From: Lachnospiraceae bacterium
Lineage (GTDB): Bacteria > Bacillota > Clostridia > Lachnospirales > Lachnospiraceae
Direction: 5' to 3'
Assembly: GCA_024687745.1 (NCBI GenBank)
Contig: JAILEM010000129.1
Location: forward strand, 1 to 49,697
Length of the DNA: 49,697 bases
Both the position numbers and the translations under genes were made by a program. This document shows positions 3,214 through 17,213 of this stretch, in pieces. Each line of letters begins with the position of its first letter. The stretch's first letter is position 1. The notes below the pieces were generated by a model. The model was not told the DNA's origin, made no database searches, and was given only the letters and a program-made list of their open reading frames with translations.

Positions 3214-4206
3214 TCATTCCAGTCTGTGCAGGTATTTAAGCTCATCATCCTTTGCGGCGGGATCCCTTATGATCTTAGCAAGATCGAGTATAACCCCTTT
3301 TATATCGGTTGGCTGCTGAAACATATCCTTTTCCATGCAGAAAACATTTCCCTCTTTGCATGCCTTTATCCCTGCAAGTATCTCTGATTTTTCATAAAGA
3401 TCCTTAAGGTCCCTTATATCTCCCTGTATGGTGCTGTTATAGATTAAGATATCAGCATCCCTGCACTGCTCATAAAAGCTCTCCATCTGTATTGTCACAA
3501 GAGTCTTATTTGTTCCCGCTTCTTTTGAAAGGCTTTCAAATGGATAACTTCCGCCTGCTATCCTTATCATTTCCGTCATATAGTCATCTTTTGTCCTTAT
3601 GCTGACTATACCGTTCTGTCCTATCGAAAAAAAAGCTGTCTTCTTAATTTCCCCTGCATCGGAAGCGATCTTTTCGATCTCATTTACGCATCTTTCAAAA
3701 TAATCACAGGCTTCTTCATATTTTCCTGTTATGGCGCCGTAAACCTTTATCCATTCAAGTCTTCCGAGAGGATCCGACTCATAGCTTGATCTTTCAACTA
3801 TCACCGGAATCCCGAAGCTCTCAAGAGTCTCCTTAACCTCAGGGTTATGATATATCATTGTATTTTCTATTGCAAGGGAACAGCCTTTATTAAGCAGCAG
3901 TTCATAATCGGGAAGGCTGTACTTCCCTACATATGTTATCTTTCCCATATCCACAAGCTCCCCTGCCTCAGGGATACTCCAGTCATCGGCCTTTGTGCTC
4001 GTCATCCCAACAAGCGAAAGTACATCAAGCTCCCTGAAATGATCCATTACAGAAGAAGAAGCCAGATATATGTTTTCAGGCTCCTCCTCTATAATGATAT
4101 CCGCGCCTGTCCCCTTATCATCCTTATTACCCTTCTTGACTATGAGGCACTTCCCGCTGTCATGGATATCTATCAGTATATTACCGTTTGCGGTTTCATT
4201 TATCAT
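3214..4206 (-). CDS. ABC transporter substrate-binding protein, BtuF/FecB-like, probably made as a frameshift fusion to the upstream chelatase
   Basis: The 330-residue product resembles cobalamin/iron-chelate binding proteins. Visible stretches include ENIYLASSSVMDHFRELD, the core LNKGCSLAIENTMIYHNPEV, and GIPVIVERSSYESDPLGR. An importer subunit outside the membrane needs an export signal, yet this protein begins MINETANGN with no hydrophobic leader. The only canonical start codon before residue 50 is the ATG at 4204-4206; its AAAGGG Shine-Dalgarno sits only three bases away. The frame stays open 5' of this ATG as far as a TGA just upstream of a nine-A slippery tract inside the end of the chelatase gene. 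A -1 shift there adds EYEVSHAKGF and joins the two proteins (about 946 residues). I infer that the fusion is the exported form. A sequencing error in the homopolymer would give the same reading. Confidence 0.88.
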   Translation of the reverse strand: MINETANGNILIDIHDSGKCLIVKKGNKDDKGTGADIIIEEEPENIYLASSSVMDHFRELDVLSLVGMTSTKADDWSIPEAGELVDMGKITYVGKYSLPDYELLLNKGCSLAIENTMIYHNPEVKETLESFGIPVIVERSSYESDPLGRLEWIKVYGAITGKYEEACDYFERCVNEIEKIASDAGEIKKTAFFSIGQNGIVSIRTKDDYMTEMIRIAGGSYPFESLSKEAGTNKTLVTIQMESFYEQCRDADILIYNSTIQGDIRDLKDLYEKSEILAGIKACKEGNVFCMEKDMFQQPTDIKGVILDLAKIIRDPAAKDDELKYLHRLE

Positions 4207-4223
4207 AAACCCTTTGGCATGAC

Positions 4224-6053
4224 TTACTTCATATTCTTTTTTTTTACATCTTCACTATCTGCCTTATCCTCTCCCGATTCCTTTATCGAGGAAGAATCAA
4301 AGCAAAGTGTATATTCTATCTCATGAGGCTTGCTCATGGCTGTTGTGTCGGCAATGACTTTTATCTCTTCATCAAAATATGCAACGGGTATGGTAAACCT
4401 TGAATTCCCCCCGGTACTCTCATTAAGGATTTTTTCGTTATCTACTACCATATAATCATAGTTCGGGCTGCTCCATTCTATTTCGGCCATACATTTTCCG
4501 TCTTCTATGACAATGCCGGCAGGTGATGTGACTGACGCCTTTCCCGAGCCTCCCTTTAAGCTAACCTCTGCCTCATAGCTTCCGTCTTCAAGAGAAAGAT
4601 CAGAGACCTTCTTTGAAGCATCCTCTTTGAATGCTGCCTTATCAAGGGAATCCGCCCTGAATACAAGAGTTCTGTCATACCACATTTCCTTATTCTTACT
4701 GAAGGCAGCCAGCGGAATCTCTGCATCAAGAGCCTCTACCCTTATCTCAAAGGAATTGCTTCCATCCTCATTTTCCACAGGCTCTATATATTCTGATCCA
4801 TCAGCCTTTGAGGCCTCCTCACCCGTTCCCATGAAGACATACTTATATCCGGTGCCGCCCATATTCATGACAGCTCTTGCTTCTCCTTCTTTTACAAGAA
4901 GCTTTGCACTTACTATGCGAAACATGGATGATGAAGAGTCAACTATGATATCGTATTCCCCGTCATTAATGTCCTTTATCGCTACAGGCTCCATCCCCTC
5001 AAAGGAAACATCCTTTACCTCAGCCATATCCTCCTCTGTGGCAACATTACCTGAAACTGCGGCCTTAACATGCTCTACATATATATCTCTTATTCCTTCA
5101 AGCTGCCCAAGGCCTTCCACTACCGTCGTAACCTCATACCCGGCATCTGAAAAAAGTGTTTTCCAGGAATCCTCATCATCTCCTGCCATATCATTATTTG
5201 CATGATCTCCCGCAACGACCATCAGAGGCCTGAGTACTGCTTTTTTATATCCTTTGTCAGCTATCTCCGAAAGTACATCCTCAACACTCGGACTGGCTTC
5301 AACCGTACCTATATAGATGTTTTCAAGACCCTTTTCATCGATGACCTCCTGCATCCTTGCATATACCTTATTTGATCCGGCTTCGGTTCCGTGACCCATA
5401 AAGCAAATGGCAGTCTCTCCGTCATCATATCCGGAAACGGCTTCTGCTATTATATCTGCCACCCTGTCAAGATCTTCATCCGAAGAAAGAAGCGGTTTTG
5501 ATACAGATACCTTTTCAAAGGCATCGGAATAATTTCCTACCTCTTTAACAAGATCGTTATACTCAAAACCGTCCATTAAATGGGTCGGTACGACAACAAG
5601 CTCCTTTACATTATTATCGGAAGCCCTTTTTAATGCTGCCTCTACATTATCGATAAGGATACCGTCCCTTTTGTTTATATGATCTATTATTATCTGGCTC
5701 GTAAACGCTCTTCTTACACTGTAATCGGGAAAAGCCTCCTCTACAGCTCCTTCTATGGCACCTATCGTAAGCCTTCTGCTGTCGTTATAGCTTGTACCAA
5801 AGCTCACAACAAGTATTTCCTTATCACCTATATCATCGCCGTTACGGGGATCATCCTTTGTTGCATCTCCCGTATCGTAATTTTCTTCCTCCTCTGCTTC
5901 CTCCTTCATAGTATCAGTCTCTTCCTCCTGATCCTCTTTTGCGCTTTCTCCCGCTGCTGTCCCTGTGGGATCCTGTATGCCTGCCGGATATGCACAGCCT
6001 GCAAAGACGAGCATAGACAATGAAAGCATCATCAGGATAAATCTTTTTTTCAT
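4224..6053 (-). CDS. cbiK: Lipoprotein CbiK-type sirohydrochlorin cobaltochelatase with two C-terminal beta-rich domains
   Basis: Residues 1-20 form a lipoprotein signal ending in FAGC (Cys20), followed by an acidic linker to about residue 75. Residues 78-335 match anaerobic cobalt chelatase CbiK: ILVVSFGTSYNDSR at 80-93, MGHGTE with His221, and AGDHANNDMAGDDEDSW with His284. These histidines correspond to the two metal/active-site histidines known in CbiK. CbiK inserts Co2+ into sirohydrochlorin, normally in the cytoplasm; a lipid-anchored extracytoplasmic form recalls the periplasmic CbiK of Desulfovibrio. The 609-residue length is about twice the usual. The excess is two similar beta-rich domains (about 362-470 and 487-588), each opening with DGxY and closing with an IPxA/IPVAYFD-type strand, reminiscent of NEAT ligand-binding domains; that assignment is tentative. 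The start has AAAGGAG seven bases upstream. The 3' end holds a slippery A tract. Confidence 0.88.
   Translation of the reverse strand: MKKRFILMMLSLSMLVFAGCAYPAGIQDPTGTAAGESAKEDQEEETDTMKEEAEEEENYDTGDATKDDPRNGDDIGDKEILVVSFGTSYNDSRRLTIGAIEGAVEEAFPDYSVRRAFTSQIIIDHINKRDGILIDNVEAALKRASDNNVKELVVVPTHLMDGFEYNDLVKEVGNYSDAFEKVSVSKPLLSSDEDLDRVADIIAEAVSGYDDGETAICFMGHGTEAGSNKVYARMQEVIDEKGLENIYIGTVEASPSVEDVLSEIADKGYKKAVLRPLMVVAGDHANNDMAGDDEDSWKTLFSDAGYEVTTVVEGLGQLEGIRDIYVEHVKAAVSGNVATEEDMAEVKDVSFEGMEPVAIKDINDGEYDIIVDSSSSMFRIVSAKLLVKEGEARAVMNMGGTGYKYVFMGTGEEASKADGSEYIEPVENEDGSNSFEIRVEALDAEIPLAAFSKNKEMWYDRTLVFRADSLDKAAFKEDASKKVSDLSLEDGSYEAEVSLKGGSGKASVTSPAGIVIEDGKCMAEIEWSSPNYDYMVVDNEKILNESTGGNSRFTIPVAYFDEEIKVIADTTAMSKPHEIEYTLCFDSSSIKESGEDKADSEDVKKKNMK
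4236..4245 (-). other. Candidate programmed -1 frameshift site (A9 tract followed by G)
   Basis: On the minus strand codons GTA AAA AAA AAG AAT close the chelatase gene. This contains the heptamer A AAA AAG in the correct phase, the same slippery sequence used by E. coli dnaX. The substrate-binding-protein frame is open only after a TGA roughly a dozen bases upstream of the A tract, and the chelatase frame ends at TAA (4224-4226). The A tract therefore lies exactly inside the window of about 27 bases where both frames are open. Either -1 ribosomal slippage or a one-base transcriptional insertion at the A run yields an in-frame fusion. No strong downstream stem was found; a weak GGTTT/AAACC pairing occurs about 20 bases on. 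Confidence 0.6.
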
Positions 6054-14320: not shown

Positions 14321-14962
14321 TTATTCATCGAGCAGGATAAACCCGAATTTACCGTAGAAATATCTCCTTACGCTGCCATCCTTCAAAAGGAGTGACAATA
14401 TACCGTCTTCATCCGCATTAATTCCAACAATGTCAAGACCTGTGTCGGAGGATACCCATTTCTGGCTGATGACCCTTTTCCCACTCTTATCTCCGGTATT
14501 TAATGCCAGATATCTCTCATTTATCACCTCTGAATTATCAAAGCCGAATTCATATACGCCTATATGCTGGGAATAATTATTTTCATCCTCTTCGACCCAG
14601 AAAGGCCTGTAGGGCCCATAGCTTCCCCTTTTCCAGAATAAGACTATGAGCTCTTCCTTCCCATCCTTATCTATATCACTTATAAGATAATCCGAGACCT
14701 TATACTCCTCATCGGATACATATTCACTTCCCTCTTCGTTCCGTATCCTTAACCTCTTATCCTTAAGAATGATATCGTAACAGATCCTTCCTATATCCTT
14801 CTTATCAGTCTTTTCCATAAAATCAGCCCAGAAGGGAATTATATATCTCTTACTGTACAAAATGACCAAAACCGCAAAGATGGCTACTGAAACTATCAGT
14901 AGCCAGATCTTTACACTTTTAAACCTGCCGGTAAATTTTACTTTATCAGTATTCCGGCTCAT
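14321..14962 (-). CDS. Hypothetical single-pass membrane protein with a VCBS/FG-GAP-like segment
   Basis: I do not recognise a named family. From the start chosen here (MSRNTDKVKF, ATG at 14960-14962, with AAGGG seven bases upstream) the product has 213 residues. A longer in-frame start at 15028 would place more of the gene inside the upstream DUF3160 gene. A hydrophobic helix at about residues 17-40 anchors it in the membrane. The outside part contains ISDIDKDGKEELIVLFW, which resembles a calcium-loop-bearing FG-GAP/VCBS strand. The gene overlaps the DUF3160 lipoprotein stop by about 17 bases, suggesting coupled expression and a surface role. Function unknown. Confidence 0.75.
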   Translation of the reverse strand: MSRNTDKVKFTGRFKSVKIWLLIVSVAIFAVLVILYSKRYIIPFWADFMEKTDKKDIGRICYDIILKDKRLRIRNEEGSEYVSDEEYKVSDYLISDIDKDGKEELIVLFWKRGSYGPYRPFWVEEDENNYSQHIGVYEFGFDNSEVINERYLALNTGDKSGKRVISQKWVSSDTGLDIVGINADEDGILSLLLKDGSVRRYFYGKFGFILLDE

Positions 14963-17213
14963 AATAAAGCCCTTCTGTCCATTCGGGCAGGTCGACCTCA
15001 CTCTCATGCCATTGTGTATAATCTTCAAACTCTATACCAAGCATTTCTCTCCACTCATGATCGGTAAGTCTGTTCTCCATTGGCCATGGGAATTCATAGA
15101 AGGTATAAACTGCTCCCCGTGCAATCTTTATCTTGCCATCCACCTTGATAAGTACATAGATGTCCCTGGGATCCCCCGTTCCTACCTCGAGTACGGATCC
15201 GTTGGGGTCGGTAGCCACATCGGCAATAATAGCCGCAGGGTATTCTTCCGATGAGAACATATCTGTTCCGGCCTGGTCTCTGTTCGCAACCACCCAGAAA
15301 TGCTCTATCTCTCCGCCGTAGCATCTGATCAGCTCATACTCCTCATCGGTAAGCACCTCATCCTTAAGCTCCTTTATTGATATATCCCTTAACTTTGCCG
15401 ATAGATCAGCTAAAATATCCAGATCCTCTTCATTATCCTTAGTAAGGTAACCAAAATCCGAGAGTCCCTCCTTGGTTGCGACCACGAGATTGTGAAGTCT
15501 TGAATATACCCTGACCTCAGGTTCCACATAACCTCTGTCATCATATTCCTCGATATCACCGCCGCCCATTTCGGCCATGAGCTGTTTTGAATAAAGTATG
15601 GTATCATGCTTAAGCTCTGCATAGCTTCCAAGGAAAGTGATAAGATCCTTTATCTTCCACTTGTCACTGAGCATAAAGGATGGATATCCCTCGCCCTTTT
15701 CCTCTATCACGGGTCTTAACATATTTAACCACTCCGAATAAAGAGAAGCGTTCCAGAGAGTCTCATCGGCATCTTCTATCTCAGCCCTGAGCTTATCCAT
15801 ATTTTCCGTATAGCCTTCGTAGTCCGTGGCACCCATATCATCAAGAATGGATAATGCTGTTTCTGAACCAAAGGCTGCCGGCACATCAAGAGCATCCGGA
15901 AGCATACGCTTATCTCCATCACTGTTTTCATCCACAGCTGAAAATACCAGTTTGGAGAATACCGCTGTATCTATGGAAAATCTCTGCCCCATGAATCTGA
16001 AGCCTGTTGACTTACTCTCCTTATCCTCTGCGCTGTCATCCTGATATACGACAACAGAATTGATCTTAGGTTTTTTAAGTTCTCCCGTAAGAGTGTGGAA
16101 TTCATCAAAAAGAGAATCGTCAGCCATAAGTCCGGAAGCATTTACGTCTTCACCGTAAACTGCATCTATTATCGGCTTATATTCATAATATCCGCTGTCA
16201 TCGGCTGCACCTGCAAAGAAGGTCGTGACAGAATAGATCTTTTCCCAGCTCTCAAGTACTTCATCCTTCATTGCAAGAGTCATAAGAAGGGCACTTCTGT
16301 CAAGATCCGTATTGCCATCCGGGTCTTCCCTTGTAAAATTCATTCTGCCATACCACATCATGGTCTTAAAGTATCTGCGAAGGTTCTCGTCATCATCATA
16401 ATATCCCCTTGGGATAAACTGTGAATAATCCTCTTCATGATCAAAAAGGGGAGAATCGGCTATGCCGGATGCAGCTTCAATAAGCTCAAGCTCCTTCCCG
16501 ACCTCATCCTTCAGATCTTCATCTATCTCTGCGGAATCATCGAGAAGACAGGCTGCAACATTGAAAAAGCCAAGATTTACTTTTGCGGCTTTTTCCCATT
16601 TGCTTCCCTTAAGCTCCTCATACTGGGCTTTGGACTCTTTGAGCATGCTTGCGGTAAGCTCATTTAACTCTTCATATAGATAATTCTTTTCCGTATTCCT
16701 TAACAGATATGAAAAATACAGATGATATGTATGAAGCAGGGAATCAACGGTTACAAAACTTGGAACATAACCATATCTGTTATATTCATAGGAATCAAAA
16801 AATTCTCTTCCGCCATAGCTGCTGATATAAAAATAATCTTCCTTTAATCTCTCCTTCTGCTCATCATCCAGATAGAAAAGGTCAAGATTATAAACATTAC
16901 CCAGATCGTCATCCACCTCATAGGGCTCTGTTGTTGCCTCTGTCTCCTCTATATCGGCTTCCATATATTTTGCGACCAAAGAGTTTCTATCAAGACTTTC
17001 AGGGCTTTCTATAACCCTTGTCTCCGACCCTTCTTTTATATCTTCATCTCCGGCTTCTTCATTATCTGACGCAACTTCTTCATCTGAAGCTTCTTCAGAC
17101 TCTTTGGTGTTTTGCGCATTTTCATAAACTCCTGCAGGAGCTGCCTGACATCCCAGGGATGTAAATGATATGGCGGATGCAACAATAATTGCTGCTATTC
17201 TTTTGTAATTCAT
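14946..17213 (-). CDS. DUF3160-family secreted lipoprotein
   Basis: The 755-residue protein begins with a lipoprotein signal ending in TSLGC (Cys22), then an acidic low-complexity linker rich in Glu, Asp, Ser and Ala. The remainder fits what I recall of DUF3160 proteins: YGYVPSFVTVDSLLHTYHLYF, FMGQRFSID, and a C-terminal region with ADVATDPNGSVLEVG. The function of this family is not established as far as I know. The protein would be anchored outside the cytoplasmic membrane. The start has a GAGAGGTG ribosome site. It lies about 54 bases downstream of the GH94 phosphorylase gene and overlaps the small membrane-protein gene at its 3' end, so the three may be cotranscribed. Confidence 0.85.
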   Translation of the reverse strand: MNYKRIAAIIVASAISFTSLGCQAAPAGVYENAQNTKESEEASDEEVASDNEEAGDEDIKEGSETRVIESPESLDRNSLVAKYMEADIEETEATTEPYEVDDDLGNVYNLDLFYLDDEQKERLKEDYFYISSYGGREFFDSYEYNRYGYVPSFVTVDSLLHTYHLYFSYLLRNTEKNYLYEELNELTASMLKESKAQYEELKGSKWEKAAKVNLGFFNVAACLLDDSAEIDEDLKDEVGKELELIEAASGIADSPLFDHEEDYSQFIPRGYYDDDENLRRYFKTMMWYGRMNFTREDPDGNTDLDRSALLMTLAMKDEVLESWEKIYSVTTFFAGAADDSGYYEYKPIIDAVYGEDVNASGLMADDSLFDEFHTLTGELKKPKINSVVVYQDDSAEDKESKSTGFRFMGQRFSIDTAVFSKLVFSAVDENSDGDKRMLPDALDVPAAFGSETALSILDDMGATDYEGYTENMDKLRAEIEDADETLWNASLYSEWLNMLRPVIEEKGEGYPSFMLSDKWKIKDLITFLGSYAELKHDTILYSKQLMAEMGGGDIEEYDDRGYVEPEVRVYSRLHNLVVATKEGLSDFGYLTKDNEEDLDILADLSAKLRDISIKELKDEVLTDEEYELIRCYGGEIEHFWVVANRDQAGTDMFSSEEYPAAIIADVATDPNGSVLEVGTGDPRDIYVLIKVDGKIKIARGAVYTFYEFPWPMENRLTDHEWREMLGIEFEDYTQWHESEVDLPEWTEGLYYEPEY

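Follow-up and report, generated by a model that had tools for sequence, protein, structure and literature searches.

A CbiK-type lipoprotein gene and a binding-protein frame split at a nine-adenine run in a Lachnospiraceae genome, and their possible rejoining by slippage

A substrate-binding protein that stays in the cytoplasm cannot serve an importer. In contig JAILEM010000129.1 of a Lachnospiraceae bacterium (GenBank assembly GCA_024687745.1), a gene for a CbiK-type chelatase lipoprotein ends in a run of nine adenines (A9), and the frame of an ABC substrate-binding protein without a leader of its own is open across the same run. This locus raises the question of whether the two frames are separate genes or parts of one chain and, if they are parts of one chain, how the chain is made. 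An earlier note, made from the sequence alone, proposed a programmed −1 ribosomal frameshift. We analyzed the junction within its window (the whole stretch of 49,697 bases, GC content 43%) and compared it with related loci; the assembly consists of 256 contigs and is 95% complete. The locus appears to encode, in split form, a one-chain surface lipoprotein that joins a CbiK-type chelatase, two NEAT-like domains and the binding domain of a FecCD-type importer; comparison shows the binding-protein frame to be homologous to chains that run unbroken in the nearest relatives. That the A9 break is real and that expression across it is restored by slippage is our preferred reading, to which we give a probability of about 0.45. 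This figure and the graded wording used for the other explanations are judgements, not computed values.

The nine-A run and the two frames

Both frames lie on the minus strand. At the junction the chelatase frame reads GAT GTA AAA AAA AAG AAT ATG AAG TAA. The binding-protein frame, one base behind it, reads TGA AGA TGT AAA AAA AAA GAA TAT GAA GTA AGT CAT GCC AAA GGG TTT ATG. The overlap is bounded by a TGA at 4252-4254 in the binding-protein frame and by a TAA at 4224-4226 in the chelatase frame. The earlier note had placed these stops correctly; the only stretch with both frames open is 25 bases long (4227-4251), not about 27. Reading both frames confirmed that the nine-A run of the coding strand (4237-4245) ends the chelatase gene and that the slippery heptamer A_AAA_AAG (4236-4242) is in phase inside this stretch. 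The run is a sense-strand poly-A tract of at least nine inside a coding overlap, as is characteristic of poly-A slippage genes. A shift at the heptamer would give a product of 606 + 10 + 330 = 946 residues, and the length proposed earlier is arithmetically right.

No A or T homopolymer of nine or longer occurs elsewhere in the window, and no run of G or C there exceeds six. The assembly contains 39 exact A9 runs. Thirteen of them fall within long sense frames, of 150 codons or more, which remain open; 25 lie neither in such a frame nor at a frame transition (one of these precedes the end of an open frame by 23 bases); and the only one at a frame transition is the run at the chelatase/binding-protein junction. 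The observation of a frame break at the A9 run is thus correct, and the break is unusual within this genome. By the same definition of a long frame, none of the three A10 runs in the assembly lies in one, which is a small number. The heptamer alone means little, since it occurs in phase eight times in the 14,240 codons of the 37 window genes.

The binding-protein ATG is located 17 bases past the chelatase stop. As had been noted, the protein starting there has no signal peptide, i.e., it lacks the export leader that Peripla_BP_2 lipoproteins have of their own, and its putative ribosome site, a weak Shine-Dalgarno-like (SD-like) AAAGGG (4210-4215), is three bases from the ATG. The site has a dG of −2.9 and a spacing of 2, the medians for 31 starts called mechanically being −6.3 and 6; two of those starts score weaker. 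The ten codons of this frame before the ATG (EYEVSHAKGF, 4207-4236) match the start of the domain in relatives: EVSHAKGF aligns with their motif L-x-Y-A-x-x-F. In a 32-row alignment that includes the window and leaves out L062-L064 (relative loci are designated by L and a number), the Ala of the motif is present in 30 rows and the Phe in 29; in place of the Ala, L031 has Ser and L055 a gap. Both residues are invariant in the 16-row alignment A3, which consists of the window and 15 hand-chosen loci of the 80 named ones, L031 not among them; L156 was left out of alignment A2. The resemblance of SHAKGF to a domain start, suggested in the earlier note, is borne out by the alignments, and the binding protein probably did not start at its ATG in its ancestry.

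The binding-protein frame bears no sign of decay. There is no stop across its 330 codons, and of the 51 positions at which the remaining 15 rows of A3 do not vary, the binding domain keeps 49, as many as the intact L093 does. Further copies of this binding protein and of CbiK were sought in the assembly without success; contig 176 encodes another, different Peripla_BP_2 protein.

Arrangements among relatives

Four arrangements were found in related loci. In the first, a chelatase gene is followed by a gene for a leader, two beta domains and the binding protein (L031, L051, L093, L117, L167 and L251). The second, with one beta domain on the chelatase and the other on the binding protein, was assigned to most loci of the genus by frame and domain position, with the leader checked by eye for L035 and L036 only. 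In the third, both beta domains belong to the chelatase, and the binding protein has a leader (L033, L034, L037 and L247). The fourth is one continuous chain. In L112 (3028-5493) a chelatase, one beta domain and the binding protein form a one-frame fusion with a single leader; in L246 (1855-4677, strand of the match) a single open frame of 941 codons holds all four domains in order behind a single leader. Judged by its sequence, the L246 chain is the natural counterpart to the 946-residue product imagined in the earlier note.

The split was assessed over 110 loci. A hydrophobic stretch precedes the binding protein in 76 of them by a crude leader test (mean hydrophobicity over 13 residues, threshold 1.7, no signal-peptide predictor), a beta domain and the binding protein share one frame in 30, and chelatase, beta domain and binding protein share one frame in one. 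Only three loci lack both a leader and an in-frame beta domain: the window and two loci cut by a contig end. This count leaves out L061-L064 and L160 (contig DGUG01000127.1), the latter dropped as a duplicate of L036, a locus of the genus, to which it is identical over the binding domain; L246, which came from a later search, is also outside it. In the 76 loci, what separates the binding protein from the frame before it resembles a normal boundary between genes, followed by a hydrophobic leader. The case named earlier as refuting the fusion, a binding protein encoded separately and carrying a signal peptide, thus holds for these 76 loci by the crude test; it is absent in the two closest relatives of the window and therefore does not refute the one-chain idea here.

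These relatives were identified with a quick tree of 113 binding domains (the broken copy L061 and the partial L062 left out), in which the window groups with L031 (support 99) and then with L093 (support 89, below the star level of 95). Both L031 and L093 encode continuous beta-beta-binding proteins, so the economical reading is that beta2 and the binding domain shared one frame in the ancestor of the window. The downstream frame thus continues the chain unbroken in homologues, as in poly-A slippage genes. Taken together with the conserved motif before the ATG and the one-frame chains L246 and L112, this supports the earlier suggestion that the two frames once formed one chain.

The break itself is not shared. 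It was found in none of the relatives in the genus (31 of 37 genomes match; the best relative has 56% identity over the binding domain), in none of the 80 named contigs, which are the best 80 of at least 592 candidates encoding a relative, in none of 392 genomes of the order (79 match at E 1e-40) and in none of 391 genomes of the class (28 match). The order and class searches gave no other full-length match with an open frame shorter than 372 codons and one partial match each; leaders of these matches were checked only for a few loci. A frameshift conserved among relatives was accordingly rejected, the window standing alone among the 110 loci besides the two cut by a contig end. The comparison of homologues proposed in the earlier note thus found the continuous fusions expected there and no relative with the break.

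Three side observations concern these loci. L031 carries an in-phase A_AAA_AAG at the aligned linker position (1835-1856) in a continuous frame, where a −1 slip would stop after two codons (GAT AAA TAA); this is a dnaX-like arrangement or chance. Two successive CbiK-type matches lie upstream of the beta and binding-protein genes in L119, L128, L134, L145, L168 and L170. The binding-protein copy L061 (genome G012) has two TGA and one TAG and is apparently broken.

Slippage and the other explanations

In our preferred reading, the A9 break is real in the organism and RNA polymerase slips on the run, so that part of the messages would carry one extra A; ribosomal slippage on the lysine codons may contribute a little. 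The products would be the 609-residue chelatase-NEAT lipoprotein and a minority chain of about 946 residues whose binding domain shares the single lipid anchor. Nine As drive transcriptional slippage in Thermus dnaX (PMC1088944; this and the other papers given by PMC number are cited from part of their text), and in Citrobacter tssM1 a run of eleven As gives transcriptional slippage of about 20-25%, both products being needed (PMC4256274). We regard it as doubtful, about as much so as the first alternative below, that the slippage is used and not just tolerated, i.e., that it sets the ratio of free chelatase-NEAT lipoprotein to a minority of tethered chelatase-NEAT-NEAT-binding-protein chains.

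Several points weigh against slippage-restored expression. E. coli RNA polymerase shows no detectable slippage on fewer than eight As, and rescue by insertion scarcely occurs except on T runs (PMC6260861). Singleton frameshifts with BLASTp validation are expected to be sequencing errors rather than genuine indels (PMC3711429). The break is a singleton among the relatives examined, the genome assembly is in 256 contigs, and a search from which very near records may be left out found no other genome of this species.

The alternative that survives best, which we consider unlikely, is that the break is absent from the organism or present in only part of its population: the assembled run length would be wrong, and the real gene would be a continuous chelatase-NEAT-NEAT-binding-protein fusion. 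The complete one-frame fusion in L246 and the singleton nature of the break, which PMC3711429 would lead one to ascribe mostly to error, speak for it. However, 13 of the 39 A9 runs lie in open long sense frames and only one at a transition, therefore A9 runs are not generally miscalled in this assembly. A scan of 24 window proteins, not designed to find frame breaks systematically, revealed no further broken domain, and a longer coding A-run would be unusual here, since none of the few A10 runs of the assembly lies in a long frame.

Somewhat less likely again is a real indel without useful rescue, the binding domain being switched off by recent loss or by a reversible change of tract length (phase variation). 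Replication slippage readily occurs on homopolymers, and phase-variable genes typically include those for surface proteins and transporters (PMC3711429); moreover, nine As may be short for efficient slippage of a bacterial RNA polymerase (PMC6260861). The 330 codons without a stop and the conserved positions kept in them argue against such silencing, as does the fact that no other binding-protein copy was found in the assembly, where the permease and ATPase frames are nevertheless intact.

A programmed −1 ribosomal frameshift of the dnaX kind, as first proposed, now seems improbable. Stimulators of the dnaX type are an upstream SD sequence about 10 bases away and a downstream stem-loop; at this junction there are SD-like stretches 19 and 25 bases upstream of the heptamer. 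The heptamer is in phase within the overlap, and the fold of 4160-4290 (minus strand), which includes 45 upstream bases, has a z of −2.36, with one of 200 shuffles as good. On the other hand, RNA folds of four downstream stretches are unremarkable (z −0.31, −1.69, −1.88 and +0.26), the heptamer is common in the window genes, and no relative shares the break. The genome encodes both tRNA-Lys(UUU) (L218) and tRNA-Lys(CUU) (L220), so the situation that contributes in E. coli, where only tRNA-Lys(UUU) reads AAG, does not hold here; a second lysine tRNA has been suggested to bear on polymerase rather than ribosome slippage in Thermus dnaX (PMC5009743).

Finally, two separate proteins, with the binding protein translated from its own ATG (through coupling or re-initiation) and left in the cytoplasm, are very improbable: the ATG is near the stop and frame transitions in ABC transporter genes have been classed as translational coupling (PMC3711429), but such a start would have a weak and close ribosome site, would cut off the conserved motif and would yield a leaderless protein useless to the importer.

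Domains, gene order and known systems

The minus-strand gene order is CbiK-type lipoprotein (6053-4224, 609 residues), binding protein (4206-3214, 330 residues), FecCD-type permease (3248-2175) and ABC transporter ATPase (2178-1405), the last two assigned by Pfam. The lipoprotein begins with a leader in which a lipobox-like FAGC was read from the sequence. Its residues 78-333 (5055-5822) match Pfam CbiK with 283 bits (gathering threshold 26.2); the equivalog NF047852 of NCBIfam, sirohydrochlorin cobaltochelatase CbiK, scores 216.2 bits, below its cut-off of 400. The binding protein matches Pfam Peripla_BP_2 with 100.3 bits (threshold 27.5), and its profile matches Lmo2184 (PDB 5joq, E 5.6e-8), which we take to be HupD of a haem importer.

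Beta2 (about residues 486-591, 4281-4598) is predicted to have a NEAT fold and matches haem-bound NEAT domains. Beta1 (about residues 365-465, 4659-4961) was scarcely covered in this fold comparison; it is a predicted beta sandwich, possibly related to NEAT. With Pfam NEAT (cut-off 32.8 bits), beta2 alone scores 14.7 bits, below the cut-off, and beta1-beta2 together give no match; among relatives, L094 scores 35.2 bits and L093 17.3 bits. Searched by sequence against solved structures, the beta domains gave no match. The haem-iron ligand motif of NEAT domains is YxxxY. In its place, by a correspondence deduced from strand order, these domains have HxxxY, with His in 28 of 29 aligned sequences.

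Two side observations concern the window. A run of eight Ts on the coding strand at 3627-3634, inside the binding-protein gene, is another slippage-prone tract. A mechanical ORF at 14321-15028 (minus strand) has no Pfam match and overlaps the end of a full-length DUF3160 gene; it seems to be a neighbouring gene or a chance frame rather than the result of a frame break.

These domains suggest a function. The NEAT-like domains may capture haem, or a tetrapyrrole related to it, whose metal the chelatase domain may act on; the binding domain may pass the ligand on to the permease. Should the break prove real and be read through, poly-A slippage would decide whether a transport binding protein is anchored outside. 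If slippage is used, a few complete units would dock on the importer with many capture units around them, and the locus would encode a recoded enzyme-hemophore-importer subunit. Apart from the frameshift, the locus family combines a chelatase of the CbiK type with NEAT-like domains and a FecCD-type binding protein, the joints varying among relatives, and points to a little-studied system of haem or tetrapyrrole scavenging in anaerobic Bacillota. Literature searches on NEAT domains, chelatases, ABC transporters and CbiK gave no paper with both “NEAT domain” and “CbiK” among the matches listed; in searches on frameshifted ABC binding proteins, on CbiK with haem and on NEAT, this arrangement was not apparent among the matches listed, going by the listings.

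As a haem-uptake protein, the predicted chain resembles the NEAT domains of Isd systems in the fold of beta2 and Lmo2184-type binding proteins in its profile match to 5joq; it differs from Isd proteins in having HxxxY and a CbiK-type chelatase in the same chain. As a frame transition, the junction shares the in-phase A_AAA_AAG with E. coli dnaX, but has no clear stimulators, a second lysine tRNA in the genome, no conservation and a longer shifted product. The chlD/Mg-chelatase genes (PMC9227772, PMC3711429) are metal-chelatase genes with a −1 transition and continuous fusions among homologues; they are of the ChlIDH/CobNST type, not CbiK, and their signal is highly conserved. In dnaX genes with two open frames (PMC3711429) a −1 step joins the frames, at poly-A tracts of 7 to 10 in 12 of 17 cases, and the sites cluster across 12 genera, unlike the singleton described here. 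Homopolymer genes of Blochmannia (PMC3017870) carry a single poly-A or poly-T indel in an otherwise intact gene and are possibly corrected by transcriptional slippage; these are very AT-rich endosymbionts with many tracts, whereas this window has 43% GC and the only such break noticed. Thermus thermophilus dnaX has nine As and two lysine tRNAs in the genome, but there the longer product needs no change of frame, and slippage gives rise to the shorter one. Judged by analogy, the best parallel is tssM1 of Citrobacter rodentium (PMC4256274), where a sense poly-A tract lies just upstream of an early stop, the next frame holds the missing C-terminal domain and homologues are mostly unbroken; slippage was shown there by experiment, on eleven As in a secretion-system protein, whereas here it is proposed from sequence for nine As in an uptake lipoprotein.
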